From positions 1-24,886 of the forward strand of contig JADHWW010000021.1 of the NCBI GenBank assembly GCA_016783285.1: a stretch of DNA of 24,886 nt, read 5' to 3'. Shown here one piece after another: positions 5,800 through 18,458 of this stretch (position 1 is its first letter; every line of letters begins with the position of its first letter). This DNA comes from Anaerolineae bacterium (GTDB lineage: Bacteria > Chloroflexota > Anaerolineae > B4-G1). The position numbers and the translations under genes were made by a program. The notes below the pieces were generated by a model. That model worked only from the letters and a program-made list of their open reading frames with translations. It made no database searches and had not been told where the DNA came from.

Positions 5800-6560
5800 C
5801 ATTGCCCCGGTCGAGAGACGAGAGGCAGCCGTTACGTTGCGGCTCAGATGGCCTACCTGGCCTTCCAACATTACCAGGCAGCGGGGGCGGTTCCATGCCT
5901 GGCCGCAAACTCGGATGCAGCCATCCAGCACCTGCACGACGCGGCGCTGGTCCTGGGATTTGGGCCCGAGTTCGAGGCATCTTGCTCACTGCCCTGTTCA
6001 ACATCCCTAATTTGCTCGAAATAGTAGCACGGTGGGACAGACTGGTTCGTGCTCAGTTGCCACCCGATGTGCTTTGGTACGCCACGCTGAGTAGAGATGG
6101 GATGAACTTCACCGGCAAAACAAGGGCTGGAGAAAATAGAAGATCTGCAGTTGCTAAAGGGCTTGAATCGCTGTGTGACCGCGCAGGCATCCCTTACCTA
6201 CCACCACACAGCCTGCGACATGGCCATGCACTCTTTGCACTTGAGCGAGCCACCAGTATAGCAGCAGCGAAGGCTATATCCCAGAACCTGATGCATGACA
6301 GCCTCACAACTACTGAAAAGATCTACGGTAAGCTCAAGTTAGACAACGTAAGAAAGCACATTGCGGCACTTACTGACCCCGAGAAATTGTCTTCTGACGT
6401 TACTTTGGATGCAATTGTCAGAGGATTCTCTGGGAATCCCGGAGCCCTTCTCGACCCACTTGCTGATGCGCTCGCCAAACGGCTATTCGAAACCCCCAAC
6501 AATTTCGTTGACACACTTGCCAAAGCAACCGCCAGCCGGATCAACGTCATACAAATAGAG
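5800..6560 (+). pseudogene. tyrosine recombinase (integrase) remnant
   Basis: From about 5975 the frame reads ILLTALFNIPNLLEIVARWD, then FTGKTRAGENRRS, HSLRHGHALFAL and LMHDSLTTTEKIYGKL, the catalytic C-terminal half of a phage-type integrase: box II H-x-L-R-H and the tyrosine in EKIYGKL are present. The N-terminal DNA-binding half is missing. Just upstream a different frame (from ATG 5848: MAYLAFQHYQAAGAVPCLAA) looks coding and could be part of the same ancestral gene, frameshifted near 5970; it ends at a TAG near 6023. The integrase frame has no stop of its own and runs on through the antisense of tRNA-Pro to 6806, so the end given is where similarity fades. Its base composition is more AT-rich than its neighbours. 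Confidence 0.7.
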
Positions 6561-6585
6561 GGTGCCCTTAGTTTGGGGCACCCTC
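6558..6585 (-). terminator. hairpin terminator downstream of tRNA-Pro
   Basis: GAGGGTGCCC pairs perfectly with GGGCACCCTC over an 8-base loop. On the minus strand it lies 5 bases past the tRNA 3' end and is followed by TATTTGT, a modest U-tract. It could also end transcripts of the recombinase remnant on the plus strand. Confidence 0.7.
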
Positions 6586-6590
6586 ATCTG

Positions 6591-6665
6591 TCGGGGCGCC
6601 GGGATTTGAACCCGGGGCCTCTACAACCCCATTGTAGCGCGCTAGCCAAGCTGCGCCACGCCCCG
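6591..6665 (-). tRNA. tRNA-Pro (anticodon GGG)
   Basis: A canonical 75-base cloverleaf without encoded CCA. The acceptor is CGGGGCG/CGCCCCG with discriminator A, the D stem GCGC/GCGC, the anticodon stem CTACA/TGTAG with loop ATGGGGT, and the T stem CCGGG/CCCGG with loop TTCAAAT. Anticodon GGG reads CCC and CCU. A strong promoter lies directly upstream and a hairpin terminator downstream. The 3' end faces an integrase remnant, the usual geometry of a tRNA-targeting element. Confidence 0.95.
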
Positions 6666-6675
6666 TACACTAAAG

Positions 6676-6704
6676 ATTATAACAAAGAGTGCGCTGTTTG
6701 GCAA
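6676..6704 (-). promoter_or_regulatory. promoter of tRNA-Pro
   Basis: Minus strand TTGCCA (6704-6699), 17-base spacer, TATAAT (6681-6676); predicted start about 5 bases before the mature tRNA 5' end. Confidence 0.85.
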
Positions 6705-6913
6705 GTCGAGATTGGGGAGCGTTGCGCCTATGGGACAAGCCCCCGTAGAGCTCCGGGCGGCCATCCGAGCAATTGTCCCCGCACGACTCGGGCAATGGGC
6801 ATGTGACTGATGTCGTAGCCAGCCAGCTCCAGGGGACATTTGCCGCGAATGTCCAGTTTTCGTCCTTCCACTGTCCGGTTGTCTTTGGCGAAAGGAGTGA
6901 AGCGATAGGTTAA

Positions 6914-10314: not shown

Positions 10315-12996
10315 ATGCGAGTACCTACAAGTTGGCTAAGAGACTATGTGGACATCGCCCTCCCCATCCCCGAACTGGCCGAGCGGCTGACGCTGGCCGG
10401 GCTGGAGGTGGAGACGGTCGAGTACATTGGCCTGCCGGGGGCCGAACTGGAGTGGGATCCAGAGAAAATCGTCGTGGGCGAGATCCACGCCGTGCGCACC
10501 CACCCCAACGCCGACCGGCTGGTCCTGGCCGAGGTGGAGTACGGCGGCCCGCAGACGGAGGTCGTCGTGTCGGGGCCTCCCAGCCTGCTGCCGCTCCGAG
10601 GTCAGGACGACCTGCACCTCAAGGTGGCCTTTGCGATGGAGGGCGCCCGTCTCTGGGACCCCTACGCCGAGGAGCCGCGCATCAGAAAACTGAAAAAAAG
10701 CAAGATTCGCGGCGTCTCTTCCCGGGCTATGGTCTGTTCCGAGAAGGAACTGGGCCTCTCCGACGAGCACGTGGACATCATCTACCTGCCCGACGACGCG
10801 CCGGTGGGCACGCCGCTGGCCGAGTACCTGGGCGACGCCGTCTTGGAATTCGACATCAAAGGGCCTTTCGCTCACCTGTACTCGGTCGTCGGCGTCGCCC
10901 GCGAGGTGGCGGCGCTGCTCGACGTGTCGCTCAGGCGGGACGCGCTACAAGTGCTGGACCGCCACCCGACAGAACTGACCCCCACGCCGGATTTTCTGGT
11001 GCTAGAGATCGCCGACCCCGACCTGTGCCCGCGCTACTCGGCGGCCTTTATCCGGGGCGTGAAGGTGGGCCCTTCGCCCTTCTGGATGCAGACGCGGCTG
11101 CACCGCGCCGGGATGCGCCCGATCAACAACATCGTGGACGTCACCAACTATGTCATGTTAGAGTTAGGGCAACCGCTGCACGCCTTCGACTATCACCTTC
11201 TGCGCCCCAGGCCTGCCCTGAGCGCTTGCCCTGAGCGTGGTCGAAGGGAAGCCGAAGGGCTCGGCGGCAACCAACCAGCAATCATCGTGCGCCGCGCCCG
11301 CCCCGGCGAGCAGATGAAGACGCTCGACGGGATCTCGCGCACCTTCGACGAGGAGATGTTGCTCATCACCGACGGGGGCGGCCCCGTGGCCGTGGCCGGC
11401 GTGATGGGCGGCCTGGAAAGCGAAGTCACTGAGGCAACGACCGACATTCTCCTGGAAGCGGCCAACTTTTACTTCCTCAACGTCCGCCGCACCTCCCGCC
11501 TGCTGGGACTGGTCAGCGAATCGAGCACCCGATTCGGGCGGCGGGTGGACCCAGAGTTGACGGTGAAAGCGGCAGCGCGGGCGGCCCACCTGATGGCGGA
11601 ACTGGGCGGCGGCGCCGGCGTCCCGGTCATCGGCGACCTGTACCCCGGCCAACAGCCGTTGCGCACCATCGAACTGGCCCCGGCGCAGGTCAACCGCATC
11701 CTGGGCATCGAAATCCCAACCGGCGAAATCGTCCGCATCCTCACCTCCCTCGAATTCCAAGTCACCCAATCACCCAGTCACCCAGTCACCCAGTCACCAG
11801 TCACCCAGTCACCAGTCACCAAGTCACCAAGTCACCAGGTCACCATCCCCTCCCACCGCCCTGACGTCACGCTTCCCGTGGACCTGGCCGAGGAGGTGGG
11901 GCGCGTGTGGGGCTACGACCGTTTCCCGACGACTTCTCTGCGCGACGAACTGCCGCCGCAGCGGGCCAATCCCCGCCTGGAGGCGGCCGAGCGCGTGCGT
12001 GACCTGCTGGTCGGCTGTGGCCTGGATGAAGTGATCACCTATTCGCTGGTGAACGTCGAGGATGAGGGAAAACTGGAGTCCAGCAGGGCGACCGCGGAGG
12101 GTCGCAGGGCGACCACGAAGGGTCGCAGGGCGACCACGAAGGGTCGCAGGGCGACCACGAAGGGTCGCAGGGCGACCACGAAGGGTCGCCCCTACCTGCG
12201 CTTGCGCAACCCTCTCTCGGCCGAGCGGGCCTATCTGCGGCAGACGCTGCTCCCGTCCCTGCTGGACACCACACGCGAAAACCTGCGCTTCCTCGACTGC
12301 GTGACCATCTTTGAAGTCGGCGCAGTCTACCGGCCGGTGGAGGGGCAGACGCTGCCCGACGAACCGCTCCTGCTGTCCATCGTGATGACCGGCCCGCGGG
12401 AGGGCCGCTCGTGGCTGGCGGGGCAAGATTGCGCGCCGTTGGGTTTCTACGATCTCAAGGGGGTGGTGGAAACATTGCTGGCGGGGCTGGGGCTGGAAGG
12501 GACGTTCGATCCGGGCGAGCACCCAGCCTTCCATCCGGGCCGGTGTGCGCAGGTAAGCATCGGCGATAATGTGGTGGGCGTGATGGGGGAATTGCATCCC
12601 CTGGCGCGGGAGGCTTTTGACCTGCCGGAGCAACCCGTCTGCGCGTTAGAGCTCGACCTGGACAGGCTGTTGGCGGCCTGGGGTGCGCCTCGCACGATGA
12701 CACCCATCTCCGCCAACCCGCCGGTGTACGAGGATCTGGCGGTGGTGGTGGACGAGGACGTGCCGGCGGTGCGCGTGCGCGACCTCATCGCCCAGACCGG
12801 CAAGTCGCTCGTGCGCTCGGTCGTGCTGTTCGACGTCTACCGGGGGGAGCAGGTGGGGGCCGGCAAGAAGAGTATGGCCTACCGCCTCACCTACCAGGCG
12901 GACGACCGCACGCTGACCGACAAGGAGGTCGCCAAACTGCGGGGCAAGATCGTGCGCCGGTTGGAGCGGGAACTGGGGGCAACGCTGCGAAGTTAG
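10315..12996 (+). CDS. pheT: phenylalanyl-tRNA synthetase beta subunit with in-frame repeat insertions
   Basis: 893 residues against about 800 in most bacteria. Start ATG 10315 has AGGAG upstream, 16 bases after the preceding gene. Domains in order: N-terminal and EMAP-type tRNA-binding domain (VVGEIHAVRTHPNADRLVLA, residues 55-75), B3/4 editing domain (MQTRLHRAGMRPINNIVDVTNYVM, residues about 260-285), B5 domain ending SHRPDVTLPVDLAEEVGRVWGYDRFP (about 518-545), catalytic-like core (LRNPLSAERAYLRQTLLPSLL) and the C-terminal FDX-ACB anticodon-binding domain (NPPVYEDLAVVVDEDVP to the end). Three insertions explain the extra length: residues about 300-320 (dispersed repeat), 482-510 (VTQSP repeats) and 589-625 (ATTKGRR repeats). 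All conserved blocks around them stay in frame, so the protein is probably functional. Confidence 0.95.
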   Translation: MRVPTSWLRDYVDIALPIPELAERLTLAGLEVETVEYIGLPGAELEWDPEKIVVGEIHAVRTHPNADRLVLAEVEYGGPQTEVVVSGPPSLLPLRGQDDLHLKVAFAMEGARLWDPYAEEPRIRKLKKSKIRGVSSRAMVCSEKELGLSDEHVDIIYLPDDAPVGTPLAEYLGDAVLEFDIKGPFAHLYSVVGVAREVAALLDVSLRRDALQVLDRHPTELTPTPDFLVLEIADPDLCPRYSAAFIRGVKVGPSPFWMQTRLHRAGMRPINNIVDVTNYVMLELGQPLHAFDYHLLRPRPALSACPERGRREAEGLGGNQPAIIVRRARPGEQMKTLDGISRTFDEEMLLITDGGGPVAVAGVMGGLESEVTEATTDILLEAANFYFLNVRRTSRLLGLVSESSTRFGRRVDPELTVKAAARAAHLMAELGGGAGVPVIGDLYPGQQPLRTIELAPAQVNRILGIEIPTGEIVRILTSLEFQVTQSPSHPVTQSPVTQSPVTKSPSHQVTIPSHRPDVTLPVDLAEEVGRVWGYDRFPTTSLRDELPPQRANPRLEAAERVRDLLVGCGLDEVITYSLVNVEDEGKLESSRATAEGRRATTKGRRATTKGRRATTKGRRATTKGRPYLRLRNPLSAERAYLRQTLLPSLLDTTRENLRFLDCVTIFEVGAVYRPVEGQTLPDEPLLLSIVMTGPREGRSWLAGQDCAPLGFYDLKGVVETLLAGLGLEGTFDPGEHPAFHPGRCAQVSIGDNVVGVMGELHPLAREAFDLPEQPVCALELDLDRLLAAWGAPRTMTPISANPPVYEDLAVVVDEDVPAVRVRDLIAQTGKSLVRSVVLFDVYRGEQVGAGKKSMAYRLTYQADDRTLTDKEVAKLRGKIVRRLERELGATLRS
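11226..11248 (+). repeat. dispersed short repeat, copy 5, inside pheT
   Basis: TTGCCCTGAGCGTGGTCGAA and the bases around it, with a partial second copy (CCTGCCCTGAGCGC) just before it at 11213, add RPALSACPERGRREAEGLG between the HAFDY and IIVRRARPGEQ blocks of the B3/4 domain. Confidence 0.8.
11758..11845 (+). repeat. AGTCACC(C) tandem repeat inside pheT
   Basis: About eleven 7- to 8-base units of the form AGTCACC or AGTCACCC, in frame, code for the VTQSPSHPVTQSP-type stretch inside the B5 domain. Because unit length varies between 7 and 8, expansions would often shift the frame; the present array has a net length that keeps it. Confidence 0.9.
12080..12190 (+). repeat. 21-bp tandem repeat of small hairpins inside pheT
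   Basis: Four perfect units of GTCGCAGGGCGACCACGAAG + G (12101-12184), preceded by one diverged unit. Each unit is seven codons (GRRATTK) and contains GGTCGC-AGG-GCGACC, a 6-bp hairpin with a 3-base loop. The array sits just before the LRNPLSAERAYLRQ block. Confidence 0.9.
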
Positions 12997-15243: not shown

Positions 15244-15271
15244 TTGCTTTTCCTACCGACAGGGGTATAAT
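15244..15271 (+). promoter_or_regulatory. promoter of the Sec-type tRNA
   Basis: TTGCTT (15244-15249), 16-base spacer, perfect TATAAT (15266-15271). The predicted start is at 15278-15279, only 3-4 bases before the mature tRNA 5' end. Confidence 0.75.
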
Positions 15272-15281
15272 CTACATCGGT

Positions 15282-15365
15282 GGAGCGGAAACTCCACAGG
15301 TGTGGGGCCTTGCCTGATAAGCAAAGGTTGCCTTCGGGCATGGGGTTCGAGTCCTCTCCGCTCCG
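15282..15365 (+). tRNA. non-canonical selenocysteine-type tRNA, 8/4 branch, anticodon GAU
   Basis: 84 bases. Acceptor stem of 8 bp, GGAGCGGA (15282-15289) with TCCGCTCC (15357-15364), discriminator G. Linker AA in place of the usual U8. D stem of 6 bp with a 4-base loop, CTCCAC-AGGT-GTGGGG (15292-15307), as in tRNA-Sec. Anticodon arm CCTTGC-CTGATAA-GCAAAGG (15308-15327) with one bulged A; U33 and A37 are present and the anticodon reads GAU. Long variable arm TGCC-TTCG-GGCA (15329-15340). T stem of 4 bp, GGGG/CCTC, with loop TTCGAGT. Total acceptor/T branch is 12 bp. The flanks extend the stem further (ATCGGT with GCCGAT). G73 and the long arm suggest seryl-tRNA synthetase as charging enzyme, so an isoleucine-type anticodon would make it a missense tRNA or a non-coding RNA; this is inference. 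It is not tRNA-Sec, because the anticodon is not UCA. Confidence 0.75.
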
Positions 15366-15370
15366 CCGAT

Positions 15371-15399
15371 TTGACAAAATCCCATCTTTATGCTATATT
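15371..15399 (+). promoter_or_regulatory. promoter of the predicted anti-tRNA small RNA
   Basis: Perfect TTGACA (15371-15376), 17-base spacer, TATATT (15394-15399). The expected start, 7 bases after the -10 box, is G15406, exactly the first base of the segment complementary to the anticodon arm. The spacing to the tRNA 3' end is 5 bases. Confidence 0.75.
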
Positions 15400-16141
15400 A
15401 TTGATGCTTATCAGGCAAGGGGATGCGAACCGTCCCGAAGGCGCCGGGCTGACCCGGCGCTTTTGCTTTGCAGAACCGTATCGTCTGCGTGAGCGCGCTT
15501 CCTTCCGCTTCTGTCCCTATCCGTTGTAGTGTTCCGCCTTCCACGTGCCAGGCGCCGCTCAGGCGCCTGGCACGTTTGACTTGTGGCCCAGCGTGGCTGT
15601 GTCCCCTACTGGTGACGATTACTTTTGGCTGGTCGGGTAGTCTCAGCGTGGCGCGGGCGAAAAAATCGTCGTCGAGTGGCGGAATGTCAGAGTAGTCTAT
15701 TTCCTCGTCTGTCATTGCCTCTAGTCTTTGCCAGTCAGTTTGTGGGTCGGAGATGTCATACCCGCGCTGTTTCAGCAGCACCGCCGCCTGCGCCCTGACG
15801 AGCAGCGTTTCGCGGTAGAGTGCCAGCAAGGTCTGTTCTTCAGCCTGTTCCCTGGCTGTCAACCTTTGACGCTGTTGTTGATGGTGCAGTGCTTCGAGGC
15901 GCTTCCGCTGCCTGGCGGGCATTGTCGCCCGGGCGGTTTGCCACAGGGCTGCGTCGTTGAGATAGGCCATCTGCGCCAGTGCCGTTCGTAGTTTCTCCGA
16001 CGCGGTATCCATCACCGGGGCGACGGCCGTGACCGCTTCGACCAACACCTCATCAACCGGTCGTCGCGCCTTTTCCGCTGCCCGCTGAATTCGCCTGTAG
16101 ACTGTTCTGGGTAGGTTTAGTGTGATAGCCTGAACTCCCAC
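15398..16141 (-). CDS. chimeric antitoxin-like protein with altered C terminus
   Basis: 247 residues from a GTG at 16141 with GGAGG 7 bases upstream. Residues 1-130 (VQAITLNLPRTVYRRIQRAAEK to LVRAQAAVLLKQRGYDI) match a helical family I recall as a complete stand-alone protein ending near that point. Residues 131-172 (TDWQRLEAMTDEEIDYSDIP, PLDDDFFARATLRLP) match the N-terminal part of BrnA/CopG-type antitoxins, which should then continue into a ribbon-helix-helix. That is missing: residues 175-247 are Arg/Gly-rich, run across a 14-bp hairpin (15543-15575) and then antisense to the small RNA terminator, and look non-native. It may therefore be a fusion of two antitoxin-type genes with a lost end. 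No partner toxin of BrnT type is next to it; VapBC follows upstream. Confidence 0.55.
   Translation of the reverse strand: MGVQAITLNLPRTVYRRIQRAAEKARRPVDEVLVEAVTAVAPVMDTASEKLRTALAQMAYLNDAALWQTARATMPARQRKRLEALHHQQQRQRLTAREQAEEQTLLALYRETLLVRAQAAVLLKQRGYDISDPQTDWQRLEAMTDEEIDYSDIPPLDDDFFARATLRLPDQPKVIVTSRGHSHAGPQVKRARRLSGAWHVEGGTLQRIGTEAEGSALTQTIRFCKAKAPGQPGAFGTVRIPLPDKHQ
15406..15466 (+). ncRNA. predicted ~60-nt small RNA antisense to the anticodon arm of the adjacent tRNA
   Basis: The first 15 bases (GCTTATCAGGCAAGG, 15406-15420) are the exact reverse complement of 15308-15322, covering the 5' half of the anticodon stem, the whole loop and two bases of the 3' half. Further on, CGAACC (15426-15431) matches the T arm (15344-15349) and CCCGAAGGC (15434-15442) the variable arm (15330-15338). 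It ends in a strong intrinsic terminator at 15441-15469. Promoter, start point, complementarity and terminator coincide, which makes a real transcript likely, but no such family is known to me. Readthrough from the tRNA promoter would place both partners on one RNA. It lies antisense to the last codons of the open frame at 15398-16141. Confidence 0.6.
15441..15469 (+). terminator. intrinsic terminator of the small RNA
   Basis: Perfect 8-bp stem GCGCCGGG/CCCGGCGC with loop CTGA, followed by TTTTGCTTT. It would also end readthrough from the tRNA. Confidence 0.9.
15543..15583 (+). terminator. perfect 14-bp hairpin
   Basis: ACGTGCCAGGCGCC (15543-15556), loop GCTCA, GGCGCCTGGCACGT (15562-15575), then TTTGACTT on the plus strand. 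It resembles the terminator at 13744 in its GGCGCC core, and lies inside the doubtful C-terminal part of the minus-strand antitoxin-like frame. Confidence 0.55.
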
Positions 16142-16299: not shown

Positions 16300-16698
16300 T
16301 CACCAGATGGCCCTGACACTTGAAAGCCGGATCTTTCGATCACGGCTGATGACTGGAAGACCCAGGTGCAGTGCTGTTGCCACAACGATGCGGTCGGGCA
16401 TGTCTGGAACCTGACTGCGCGGAACTCGAGAGATTGCGTCGGCCACTCCTCCCGTAAGATCAAAAAGAGCAAGGCCAGTAGTCCCGCTTTGCAGTTCTGC
16501 GTCCAGTTGCTTTTTGAGGTCAGCCGGGATGCGCCCTTTTTCCTGCAGGTAGATGATCTCCACCACGCAGATCGTGGGGATGTAGATGATCAACTCTCCG
16601 GCATCGCAGGAATCGAAGAACTTGGATGCTTGCGGCCCCAGCCGGGGATCATCTTGCAGGTACCATATCAGGCCGTGGGTGTCTGTTACAGCGTCCAT
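16300..16698 (-). CDS. vapC: VapC-family PIN-domain toxin
   Basis: 132 residues, normal for VapC. PIN-domain metal-binding acids are visible at D6 (VTDTHGLIWYL), E47 (VVEII), D102 (MPDRIVVATAL) and D120 (ISRDRKI). Such toxins are Mg-dependent ribonucleases, several of which cut tRNA anticodon loops or the ribosomal sarcin-ricin loop; the target here cannot be read off. The ATG at 16698 starts 4 bases after the antitoxin stop, with GGGAG upstream; the longer frame to 16770 overlaps the antitoxin and is rejected. It is co-transcribed with the antitoxin from the promoter at 17037-17065. Confidence 0.85.
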   Translation of the reverse strand: MDAVTDTHGLIWYLQDDPRLGPQASKFFDSCDAGELIIYIPTICVVEIIYLQEKGRIPADLKKQLDAELQSGTTGLALFDLTGGVADAISRVPRSQVPDMPDRIVVATALHLGLPVISRDRKIRLSSVRAIW

Positions 16699-16702
16699 TG
16701 AA

Positions 16703-16939
16703 TTAGAACTCCCGCTCACCAAAGTGCTCCCACATTTCTCGACGAATCTCTGCGATCTCTTCCTCCCCAATTGTCAGGCCCCGCCACAGGCCGCGCAGCG
16801 ACTTGCGCGGTCGTGGATGGACAAACAATTCTTTTTCCAATGCTGGCAGGGCCTTGCTTACCACCCGCAGTTGCTCACGCGGTGGCAACTGTCGCAGGAG
16901 TACCAATACCTGATCGGCTGTCGCTACATAGGTTGACAT
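16703..16939 (-). CDS. vapB: VapB-type antitoxin
   Basis: 78 residues from the ATG at 16939, which has AGGAGAG upstream; the track of open frame to 17197 above it is not coding. The N-terminal part (MSTYVATADQVLVLLRQLPP to LRVVSKALPALEKELF) is helical, and the end (LRGLWRGLTIGEEEIAEIRR EMWEHF) is the toxin-wrapping tail seen on antitoxins paired with this VapC group. It should block the VapC active site and repress the shared promoter. It directly precedes vapC, the usual antitoxin-first order. Confidence 0.8.
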   Translation of the reverse strand: MSTYVATADQVLVLLRQLPPREQLRVVSKALPALEKELFVHPRPRKSLRGLWRGLTIGEEEIAEIRREMWEHFGEREF

Positions 16940-17036
16940 ACCACTCTCCTTCAAACGAGTCTGGCTTGGTCGGTGACTGGCCAGAGCATTTGGAGCACAC
17001 TCTGTAGGAACGGGCCTCGCGTATGCTTGTAGGGTC

Positions 17037-17065
17037 AGTATACCACAAGGCATCCGGGTTTTCAA
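17037..17065 (-). promoter_or_regulatory. promoter of the vapBC operon
   Basis: Minus strand TTGAAA (17065-17060), 17-base spacer, TATACT (17042-17037); leader of about 90 bases to the vapB ATG. Confidence 0.75.
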
Positions 17066-17081
17066 CTGTCTGCCGGCCAAC

Positions 17082-18458
17082 CTACAGTGGCTCGAACCGT
17101 GCCGTAAAGTGGCGCAGGATGGCCGGCGCGTAGGTGTAGCGCATGCCCCGAATCTGGTCGCGTTTCTCGTAGAGGCGCTGGCAGACCTCCACCACATAGT
17201 CCAGGTGCGCCTGGGTGTAGACCCGACGCGGGAGCGTCAGCCGCACCAATTCCAGCGTTGGATAAATGTCCTCGCCCGTCTCCGGGTCCTCACGGACAAA
17301 TGCCACGCTGCCCATCTCTGTCCCACGGATGCCGCCTTCCAGGTACAGCGCGCAGGTGAGCGCCTGGCCGGGCAGTTCGCGCTGCGGGATGTGCGGCAGG
17401 AAGCGCTTGACGTCCACGTAAACCGCGTGGCCGCCGGCAGGCTCCAGGATGGGGATGCCCTCTTCCATCAGCCGGTCGGCCAGGTACTTTGTGTGGGCGA
17501 TGCGGTAGGCCAGGTATTGCTCGTCCACTCCTTCCCACAACCCACGCGCCACTGCCTCCAGGTCGCGCCCCGCCAGCCCGCCGTAGGTGGGGAACCCTTC
17601 GCGCAGGATCAGTTCCTGACACACGCGCCGGTATAACTCTTCGTCGTTCATCGCCAGGAAGCCGCCGATGTTGACCAGCGCGTCCTTCTTGGCCGACATT
17701 GTGCAGCCGTCGGTATAGGAGAACATCTCGCGGGTGATCTCAATGACGGGCGTCTCTGCGTAGCCTGGCTCGCGCAGTTTGATGAAATAGGCGTTCTCGG
17801 CGTAGCGGCAGGCGTCGAGGAAGAAAGGGATGCCATAGCGGTGGAGCACCTCACCGGTGGCGCGGATGTTAGCCATCGAGACCGGCTGACCGCCGCCGGC
17901 ATTGTTCGTCACCGTCAACATCCCCAGCGGAATGTTCTCCGGCCCCGTCTGCTGGATGAACGCTTCCAGTTTCTCGACGTCTATGTTGCCCTTGAAGGGC
18001 GCGCGGCTGGTAGGATCGAGTCCTTCCTCGACCAGCAGGTTGACCGGATCGCCGCCCCGGGCGATGACGTTGGCCTGGGTGGTGTCAAAGTGCATATTGC
18101 TGGGCACCGACTGGCCCGGCTTGACCGTGCAGGCGAACAGCACATTCTCGGCGGCGCGGCCCTGGTGGGTGGGCACAAAGTAGCGCAGACCGGTGATGGA
18201 CTGGATCGCCTTCTCCAGGTTGAAAAAGTTGCGGCAGCCGGCGTAACTCTCGTCGCCGAGCATCATCCCGGCCCACTGGTTGTCGGACATCGCCGCCGTG
18301 CCCGAATCGGTCAGCAGGTCAATGTAGATTTCCGCGCCGCGCACGCCAAAGATATTGTAGCCGGCCCGCCGCAGGATCTCCTCCCGCTCGGCGCGGGTGG
18401 TCTGGTGGATGGGCTCGACGACTTTGATCTTGAATGGCTCGACAGGGAACTTGGGCAT
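17082..18458 (-). CDS. tnaA: tryptophanase (tryptophan indole-lyase)
   Basis: 458 residues. PLP enzyme of the beta-eliminating lyase family, splitting tryptophan into indole, pyruvate and ammonia. The ATG at 18458 has AGGAG 7 bases upstream. Family blocks are IYIDLLTDSGTAAMSDNQWA, VPTHQGRAAENVL, NNAGGGQPVSMANI, FFLDACRYAENAYFIK, the PLP lysine in CTMSAKKDALV, and RLTLPRRVYTQAHLDYV. Residues that I recall as separating tryptophanase from tyrosine phenol-lyase point to tryptophanase: FDTTQ (Asp, not Thr), RHFTARF (His, not Phe), and GTEMGS in place of SMERG. Overall blocks are mixed between the two, so substrate should be treated as probable. No TnaC-like leader peptide is visible in the roughly 75-base leader, and no permease adjoins. 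Confidence 0.85.
   Translation of the reverse strand: MPKFPVEPFKIKVVEPIHQTTRAEREEILRRAGYNIFGVRGAEIYIDLLTDSGTAAMSDNQWAGMMLGDESYAGCRNFFNLEKAIQSITGLRYFVPTHQGRAAENVLFACTVKPGQSVPSNMHFDTTQANVIARGGDPVNLLVEEGLDPTSRAPFKGNIDVEKLEAFIQQTGPENIPLGMLTVTNNAGGGQPVSMANIRATGEVLHRYGIPFFLDACRYAENAYFIKLREPGYAETPVIEITREMFSYTDGCTMSAKKDALVNIGGFLAMNDEELYRRVCQELILREGFPTYGGLAGRDLEAVARGLWEGVDEQYLAYRIAHTKYLADRLMEEGIPILEPAGGHAVYVDVKRFLPHIPQRELPGQALTCALYLEGGIRGTEMGSVAFVREDPETGEDIYPTLELVRLTLPRRVYTQAHLDYVVEVCQRLYEKRDQIRGMRYTYAPAILRHFTARFEPL

Follow-up and report, generated by a model that had tools for sequence, protein, structure and literature searches.

The DNA analysed here (the window: 24,886 nucleotides from an Anaerolineae bacterium of the Chloroflexota) carries on its plus strand a tRNA gene of unusual build, followed by a predicted small-RNA gene whose 5′ end is exactly complementary to the anticodon arm of that tRNA (Table 1). 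The tRNA matches the Rfam tRNA-Sec model RF01852 at 48.0 bits, 1 bit above the gathering cut-off of 47, and has the 12-bp branch (8-bp acceptor plus 4-bp T stem) of the 8/4 allo-tRNAs, together with their combination of a non-serine anticodon, a long variable arm, and the Ser discriminator G73. The first-pass annotation, made from the letters alone, had called this tRNA non-canonical. It is not read as a true tRNA-Sec, as the anticodon UCA is absent and the loop CUGAUAA presents GAU. ARAGORN, run on the window, called no tRNA at 15282-15365.

The promoter of the small-RNA gene, with hexamers and spacing as the first-pass annotation had placed them, begins five bases beyond the discriminator of the tRNA. 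The antisense starts five bases after the -10 hexamer, at the expected start of a transcript; that annotation, too, had noted that the two starts coincide. The annotation had also proposed 15 bases complementary to 15308-15322; the complementarity is real and the length was too short, since 15405-15420 pairs with 15308-15323 over 16 nt. The 8-bp GC terminator that it described is a perfect stem (15441-15448 / 15453-15460), followed by TTTTGCTTT at 15461-15469. The fold of 15401-15469 beats 200 of 200 dinucleotide shuffles (z -3.81). A reading of the small RNA as an opposite-strand antisense tRNA was rejected, the gene being a separate stretch downstream of the tRNA on the same strand.

Table 1. 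Features of the tRNA gene and the predicted small-RNA gene in the window
Feature	Position	Strand	Basis or remark
Probable tRNA-gene promoter, TTGCTT-N16-TATAAT	15244-15249 / 15266-15271	+	read from sequence, consensus match only
tRNASec-like / allo-tRNA-type (8/4) tRNA gene	15282-15365	+	RF01852 alignment and acceptor pairing
8-bp acceptor stem	15282-15289 / 15357-15364	+	8 perfect pairs
6-bp D stem	15292-15307	+	RF01852 alignment
Antisense target: 5′ strand of anticodon stem, entire anticodon loop, first bases of 3′ strand	15308-15323	+	inverted repeat I1, 16 nt, 100%
Anticodon GAU (Ile) in loop CUGAUAA	15316-15318 in 15314-15320	+	
Variable arm	15329-15340	+	
4-bp T stem	15342-15356	+	RF01852 alignment
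Discriminator G, CCA not encoded	15365	+	
Small-RNA promoter, TTGACA-N17-TATATT	TTGACA 15371-15376, TATATT 15394-15399	+	conserved in G031 and G002 modules
Predicted small RNA, ~65 nt	15405-15469	+	span between promoter and terminator
Segment 1, exact 16-nt antisense of anticodon arm 15308-15323	15405-15420	+	100%
Segment 2, second antisense stretch	15421-15442	+	CGAACC against T loop, CCCGAAGGC against variable arm
Intrinsic terminator, GCGCCGGG-CTGA-CCCGGCGC then TTTTGCTTT	15441-15469	+	

Related modules in cellular genomes and viral contigs

We identify 17 further modules of this kind, nine of them in eight genomes related to Chloroflexota and eight in IMG/VR viral contigs. With the window this makes 18, each a tRNA gene joined to a predicted small-RNA gene, and together they carry 11 anticodons. 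The cellular modules come from at most 866 genomes, many of them scanned repeatedly, and their number is a minimum because only strict T-loops and promoters were sought.

Relatives of the window were found through the neighbouring PheT gene (21 loci, 19 from Chloroflexota and two from other phyla). The module, compared by blastn with 100 relatives, had a match in eight genomes, which was full in one of them (G031, 81% identity over positions 3-200 of 201) and short and of tRNA type in the others. The G031 copy keeps the promoter, the antisense, and the terminator, and the DNA that it has in common with the window also stops at the terminator. One pair of its anticodon stem has changed from T-A to C-G, and the small RNA has changed in step from A to G. 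The nearest homologue has thus retained complementarity and promoter through compensatory change, and it does not show the loss of either that would have spoken against the first-pass interpretation. Its tRNA is damaged, however. Over the first third from the 5′ end the sequence reads as a dispersed repeat, and no full acceptor stem forms, so this tRNA is probably non-working now; a looser blastn alignment still extends through its 5′ part. The repeat (around positions 14880-15000 of contig C22 of that genome, L122/L131) reads as one of the GTTCGTAG... type, with two copies in L274, and the small-RNA gene there looks intact.

An anticodon-blind pattern of T-loop, spacer, and promoter was run over the class to which G031 belongs (396 genomes, of which 47 matched), and the sites were then checked for complementarity between the tRNA and the DNA after the promoter. 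Contig C62 of G002 proved to hold a complete module (G002a), whose anticodon is UAG and whose antisense is 15 nt long. Further modules were found on contig C71 of the same genome (G002b, anticodon CGC), in G083 (CGC), and in G343 (CCU). Of 111 genomes related to G343, 17 had a match, and these added G766 (CCA), G785 (GUC), and G754 (UCU) besides G343 itself; of 108 related to G083, 24 had a match, and these added G025 (CCA). A scan of 400 genomes drawn evenly from the phylum, with 21 matching, returned only G031 and G083 again; its stricter -35 missed G343 although that genome was included. A relaxed -35 pattern matched in 31 of 199 genomes and gave no new module at the places examined (all but G056:C40). 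RF01852 proved unsuitable as a search tool, as it matched in 14 of 14 control genomes, by our reading mostly on other long-armed tRNAs. It was replaced by the promoter pattern and by a model with the intermolecular helix (R1), which matched at E <= 1 in 104 of 249 genomes; only G002 and G031 stood out (at 153 and 149 bits, the next score being 38.6), and no antisense was present at the loci examined for the remaining matches.

The viral modules were reached by another route, with terminator or hairpin patterns and no promoter pattern. The conserved terminator of the G754 and G766 small RNAs occurs as a 16-mer in 13 IMG/VR contigs and as a 15-mer in 44, six of which have a T-loop motif within 330 nt upstream; all six carry an antisense (anticodons GCU, UCC, GAC, GCA, GCU, and CCA). 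A second conserved hairpin pattern hit three viral contigs and three modules, two of them new, namely L603 (GCU) and L604, the latter nearly identical to the G343 module. Other probes of viral and mobile DNA were negative: the 15-mer GCTTATCAGGCAAGG occurred in 70 viral contigs, none with both arms in the stretch examined; two T-loop/promoter scans of viral contigs gave no module among the matches listed; the type-A promoter pattern had no match in viral contigs; and blastn of plasmids and phages gave no match. Three candidates were discarded, L186 (11 nt) and L117 as inverted matches at the wrong place, and L431 as a 9-nt match at a distance.

The coupling of promoter and antisense extends across the modules: in 17 of the 18, between 3 and 7 bases lie between the best -10 hexamer and the beginning of the antisense. 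In the exception, G083, the script chose a poor hexamer, and the hexamer of the search pattern itself lies 8 bases from the core. Seven of the nine cellular modules (all except G031 and G002a) were found only by the pattern that combines T-loop and promoter, and the promoters of these seven therefore cannot count as separate support. All eight viral modules have a -10 match of at least 5/6 and a -35 match of at least 4/6 upstream of the antisense, and these promoters are independent support, since no promoter pattern was used to find them. A terminator follows the antisense in most members examined; the scripted terminator search found none for G343, and in G002a the script picked a later hairpin than the terminator read by eye.

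Pairing, tRNA bodies, and genomic setting

Different anticodons come with matching, different antisense stretches. In the window, G002a, and G031 the intermolecular helix comprises 16 pairs, with 48 of 48 cells standard pairs and six pairs doubly changed; none of 500 shuffles was as high in score or in cells paired, and slid versions were 29-51% paired. Over tRNA positions 27-38 of 16 modules (all but L603 and L604), 175 of 192 cells are Watson-Crick, against a mean of 88.6 (sd 8.1, max 127) in 20,000 reassignments of partners. Positions 29 and 31-35 are paired in all 16 modules, position 30 in 15 with one G·U, and position 36 in 14, with up to four kinds of pair per position and an invariant U33. 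The complementarity is therefore maintained by compensatory change, as expected of an antisense RNA with a dedicated target.

Exact antisense lengths over the 18 modules are 10-16 nt, with the exception of V542, where an exact run of 6 lies within 12 pairs that include one G·U. At 52 distinct sites where a promoter follows a T-loop, one of them in the window, the longest matches were 16, 15, 15, 14, 13, and 12 nt, and the other 46 sites had at most 7 nt. Among 2652 mismatched pairings of these sites the two longest were 13 and 11, both from the homologous window and G031 modules matched against each other, and the rest did not exceed 9. The small RNAs of six modules (window, G031, both of G002, G083, and G343), compared with 192 distinct tRNAs, had no match longer than 9 nt to any tRNA but their own. 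In a control of 441 T-loop sites in viral loci L308-L374 matches reached 10 nt, and the background reached 11 once (L186). By exact length V537 and V540 (10 nt each), V539 (11), and V542 (6) lie within this background, and these four are held as members by the position of their antisense.

A second, weaker signal lies further along the small RNA. When each small RNA was set against the D arm and the variable/T arm of its own tRNA, 8 of 16 pairs had an antisense stretch of at least 8 nt, against 9 of 238 pairs with swapped partners (L604 and G031 left out as near-duplicates). The stretch follows changes in the tRNA, as with CCACTAAGC/GCTTAGTGG in L539 and ATTGAGTTA/TAACTCAAT in L603. In an energy test of the second segment (30 nt allowed, 500 shuffles each) p was 0.002-0.006 in the window, G031, and G766 and 0.026-0.088 in G083, G785, and G002b; G754, G025, G343, and G002a were not significant at this length (p > 0.1). 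With 45 nt allowed the signal was weaker throughout, except in G002b. The composition of the segment varies. The T-loop complement CGAACC is found in the window, G031, and G002b and is absent in G002a, and was dropped as a family trait. The 9-mer CCCGAAGGC at 15434-15442, complementary to variable arm 15330-15338 (inverted repeat I7), is only partly kept in G031 and was used within the second segment rather than as an independent signal.

The tRNA bodies fall into three types. Type A (window, G031, and G002a) is tRNASec-like with a Ser-type discriminator; G002a shares the 8-bp acceptor of the window tRNA, and both combine the 8/4 branch, a long variable arm, and G73 with an Ile or Leu anticodon. 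Type B (G002b, G083, G785, and some viral members) has Arg-like or other bodies. Type C (G343 CCU, G766 CCA, G754 UCU, G025 CCA, L538 UCC, and L542 CCA) has G3·U70, which thus stands with non-Ala anticodons in 6 of 15 intact tRNAs; pair 3-70 was assigned in a 7-bp acceptor register. A first register of G754 with another anticodon was replaced by the one that gives UCU. In all, at least 8 of the 15 intact tRNAs carry an anticodon foreign to the identity of their body, which is Ser-like or, with G3·U70, Ala-like. Anticodon stems are weak in several modules (G083, V540). Outward extension of the acceptor stem by at least 3 pairs past the discriminator is more frequent in intact modules (6 of 9 cellular, 3 of 6 viral) than among control tRNAs (13 of 203, including one that is itself a module), and such extended stems may affect processing by RNase P.

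The modules share no common genomic position. That of G031 lies between nuoJ and nuoL on the other strand (gene names from reading of the frames), so its location is not the one in the window. Phage head genes adjoin the modules of G754, G766, and L533, tyrosine integrases lie by those of L537 and L540, and a serine integrase by that of L542. Phage contig L546 has no module at the place among the head genes that different modules occupy in G754 and L533/L547, and the capsids of L546 and L547 are 99% and 98% identical to the G754 query. The modules of G754 and L533/L547 thus have the marks of phage morons, with their own promoter and terminator, a place between phage genes, and absence from a close relative. 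This mobility and the several phage-borne modules, the other tRNA bodies, and the second antisense stretch in about half of the small RNAs had not been foreseen in the first-pass annotation.

Several observations concern the neighbours. A similar N6/N4 DNA methyltransferase with an Mrr-like (restriction-like) C-terminal domain adjoins the modules of G343 (L415/L530), L539, and L540. A gene for a single-strand DNA-binding protein lies near those of G002a and G785 (L305 5373-5792 and L501 2428-2973), the L305 protein being assigned by similarity to that of L501 and by reading. In the window, 16303-16770 on the minus strand encodes a PIN-domain protein (PF01850, E 5e-9), VapC-like by reading and with no PADLOC match; the small frame 16706-17197 upstream of it has no Pfam match. 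A frame at 5802-6806 on the plus strand reads like the end of a tyrosine recombinase, has no Pfam match, and overlaps a tRNA-Pro gene (6590-6665, minus strand), possibly an old integration site. The PheT gene of the window (~11190-11260 and 12060-12300) contains what appear by eye to be in-frame dispersed or tandem repeat insertions, of the CPERGRREAEG type and of repeated RRATTKG.

Proposed function and its alternatives

We propose, with a probability of roughly 0.6, that these loci are two-gene mobile RNA modules in which an anti-anticodon RNA keeps in check a tRNA that could mistranslate, most likely in the manner of a toxin and its antitoxin. The first gene would make a tRNA whose identity elements often clash with its anticodon. 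The second, with its own promoter and terminator, would make a small RNA of ~65-120 nt whose 5′ end is antisense to the 5′ strand of the anticodon stem and to the loop; about half of these small RNAs would also carry the second stretch, directed against the D arm or the variable/T arm. On the covariation, the coupling of starts, and the controls, the small RNA is almost certainly the antisense partner of the adjoining tRNA. We infer that the genes are transcribed and that the two RNAs pair in the cell, where the small RNA would open the anticodon stem and cover the anticodon; because the paired region comprises the anticodon loop and the 5′ strand of the stem, pairing must undo that stem. A tRNA covered in this way would be unreadable by the ribosome, and it is likely that the small RNA silences its decoding.

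What the tRNA would do when free is suggested by its identity elements. According to the part of the review PMC7609411 considered here, SerRS does not recognise anticodons, and allo-tRNAs with G3:U70 inserted mainly Ala and Ser; tRNAs of types A and C could therefore be charged with, and place, Ser or Ala at foreign codons. Mischarging is unexplained for type B (G002b, G083, and G785), for which there is no obvious anticodon-blind synthetase. The module would travel as a unit, its carriers being temperate phages and other variable DNA in Chloroflexota and related bacteria, and may act in the lysogen as a moron-borne RNA-RNA toxin-antitoxin pair, the tRNA being freed, with presumably toxic effect, once the small RNA is lost or no longer made. 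A toxin-antitoxin-like unit is the most economical account of mobile, often phage-borne tRNAs of mistaken identity, and we advance this part of the proposal tentatively. With similar reserve, we raise the possibility of a mobile, RNA-only class of toxin-antitoxin (or phage-defence) systems in which the toxin is a mistranslating tRNA with almost any anticodon placed on a body that an anticodon-blind synthetase (SerRS, AlaRS) reads, an antisense small RNA serves as antitoxin, and phages swap tRNA bodies and anticodons freely provided that the antisense follows.

The main rival to the toxin-antitoxin reading, which we consider unlikely, is a useful phage tRNA that the small RNA merely times, for instance by keeping it silent in the lysogen, with no toxin involved. 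Phage tRNAs with helper roles are known (codon supply, replacement of cleaved host tRNAs, or tRNA-dependent lysogeny, as described in the part of PMC10865867 considered here), and several modules do lie in temperate phages near integrases or head genes. However, the clash of identity and anticodon in at least 8 of 15 intact tRNAs means that wrong amino acids would be inserted, the codons served are diverse (11 anticodons), and no phage gene was recognised among the few neighbours scanned beside the copies in the window, G031, G002, and G025.

Two further explanations are less probable than the helper tRNA. If the real target of the small RNA were an mRNA or the host tRNA of the same anticodon, the odd tRNA would act as a sponge that soaks up the small RNA. 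In E. coli, fragments derived from tRNAs are known to act as sponges for small RNAs, and up to 9 nt of the small RNA also match some normal isoacceptors, because the anticodon loop is common to them. The match to other tRNAs went no further than these 9 nt in the six small RNAs tested, however, and the small RNA tracks the stem sequence peculiar to its neighbour, as well as the D or variable/T arm in roughly half of the modules. Alternatively, the small RNA might serve maturation or protection, by shielding the anticodon from anticodon nucleases or by guiding the processing of an unusual precursor. PIN/VapC toxins often cut tRNAs, and a PIN-domain protein is encoded near the module in the window; the outward pairing of the acceptor stem (6/9 cellular and 3/6 viral modules against 13/203 controls) would also fit. 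Against this, the anticodon would be unusable while covered, it is the anticodon arm that is paired and not the ends to be processed, and no PIN protein was found among the scanned neighbours of the other modules.

It is very improbable that the repeat acts only at the DNA level, as a recombination or attachment site or as the leftover of an inverted duplication. The modules are mobile, some lie beside integrases, and an inverted copy could have left behind the stretches complementary to the variable/T arm, but the complementarity is renewed at the anticodon by compensatory change, starts at the predicted transcription start, and is followed by a terminator in most members examined, and modules among head genes have no evident attachment role. 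A chance match from a long scan, conceivable for a 16-mer picked by eye from the whole window, is practically excluded by the independent members, the permutation tests, and the controls, in agreement with the first-pass annotation, which had judged the match to be beyond chance.

If confirmed, the proposed toxin-antitoxin-like modules would add decoding itself to the processes controlled by antisense RNA, give a role to some puzzling mis-identity tRNAs and allo-tRNAs, and provide an example of a toxin made of tRNA. For work on the genetic code, they would also supply a natural means of turning suppressor tRNAs on and off.

Comparison with known systems

The first-pass annotation knew of no such tRNA and anti-tRNA pair; likewise, in the open-access literature, to which our search extended (subscription papers and preprints lying outside it), we found no described tRNA with a dedicated antisense RNA gene that co-evolves with its anticodon. 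T-boxes are mRNA leaders that pair with the three anticodon bases and sense charging. In them, as proposed for the modules, an RNA reads the anticodon of a tRNA by base pairing, whereas the antisense of the modules covers the arm with 10-16 bp and no downstream controlled gene is seen. RNAI and RNAII of ColE1 form an antisense kissing pair, in which a short antisense RNA achieves loop-loop recognition. The modules would be alike in this recognition and differ in having a tRNA as target, whose gene lies apart from that of the antisense and does not overlap it.

CreTA belongs to the type VIII (RNA-RNA) toxin-antitoxin systems. It consists of adjacent small RNAs and has an addictive character, as is presumed of the modules, and CreT acts on the tRNA pool; in the part of PMC8501985 considered here, however, CreT sequesters a host tRNA through its codons, and CreA represses CreT with CRISPR-Cas. 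In the modules, by contrast, the presumed toxin is the tRNA itself and the presumed antitoxin is antisense to its anticodon. The antisense tRNAs of Pseudomonas aeruginosa, as presented in the part of PMC8765398 drawn on here, are likewise bacterial RNAs complementary to tRNAs, in one case tied to a mobile island, but they are antisense counterparts of the tRNA genes themselves, from the opposite strand. The predicted small-RNA gene of the modules instead lies downstream of the tRNA gene, is distinct from it, and is read from the same strand by a promoter of its own; its match to the tRNA is partial and co-evolves with it.

Closest in the tRNA itself are the allo-tRNAs, 8/4 and 9/3 tRNASec-like tRNAs (Mukai et al. 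2017, via the review PMC7609411), with which the window and G002a tRNAs share the 8/4 branch, the long variable arm, G73, and a non-Ser anticodon. The part of that review considered here names Clostridia, Proteobacteria, and Acidobacteria, with no occurrence of ‘Chloroflexi’, ‘antisense’, or ‘regulatory’. Most modules, moreover, have tRNA bodies of ordinary size, and all have a dedicated antisense with its own promoter. Allo-tRNAs, RNA-RNA toxin-antitoxins, CreTA, and opposite-strand antisense tRNAs are thus the nearest kinds, each sharing one aspect with the modules described here and each without a dedicated anti-anticodon RNA gene.
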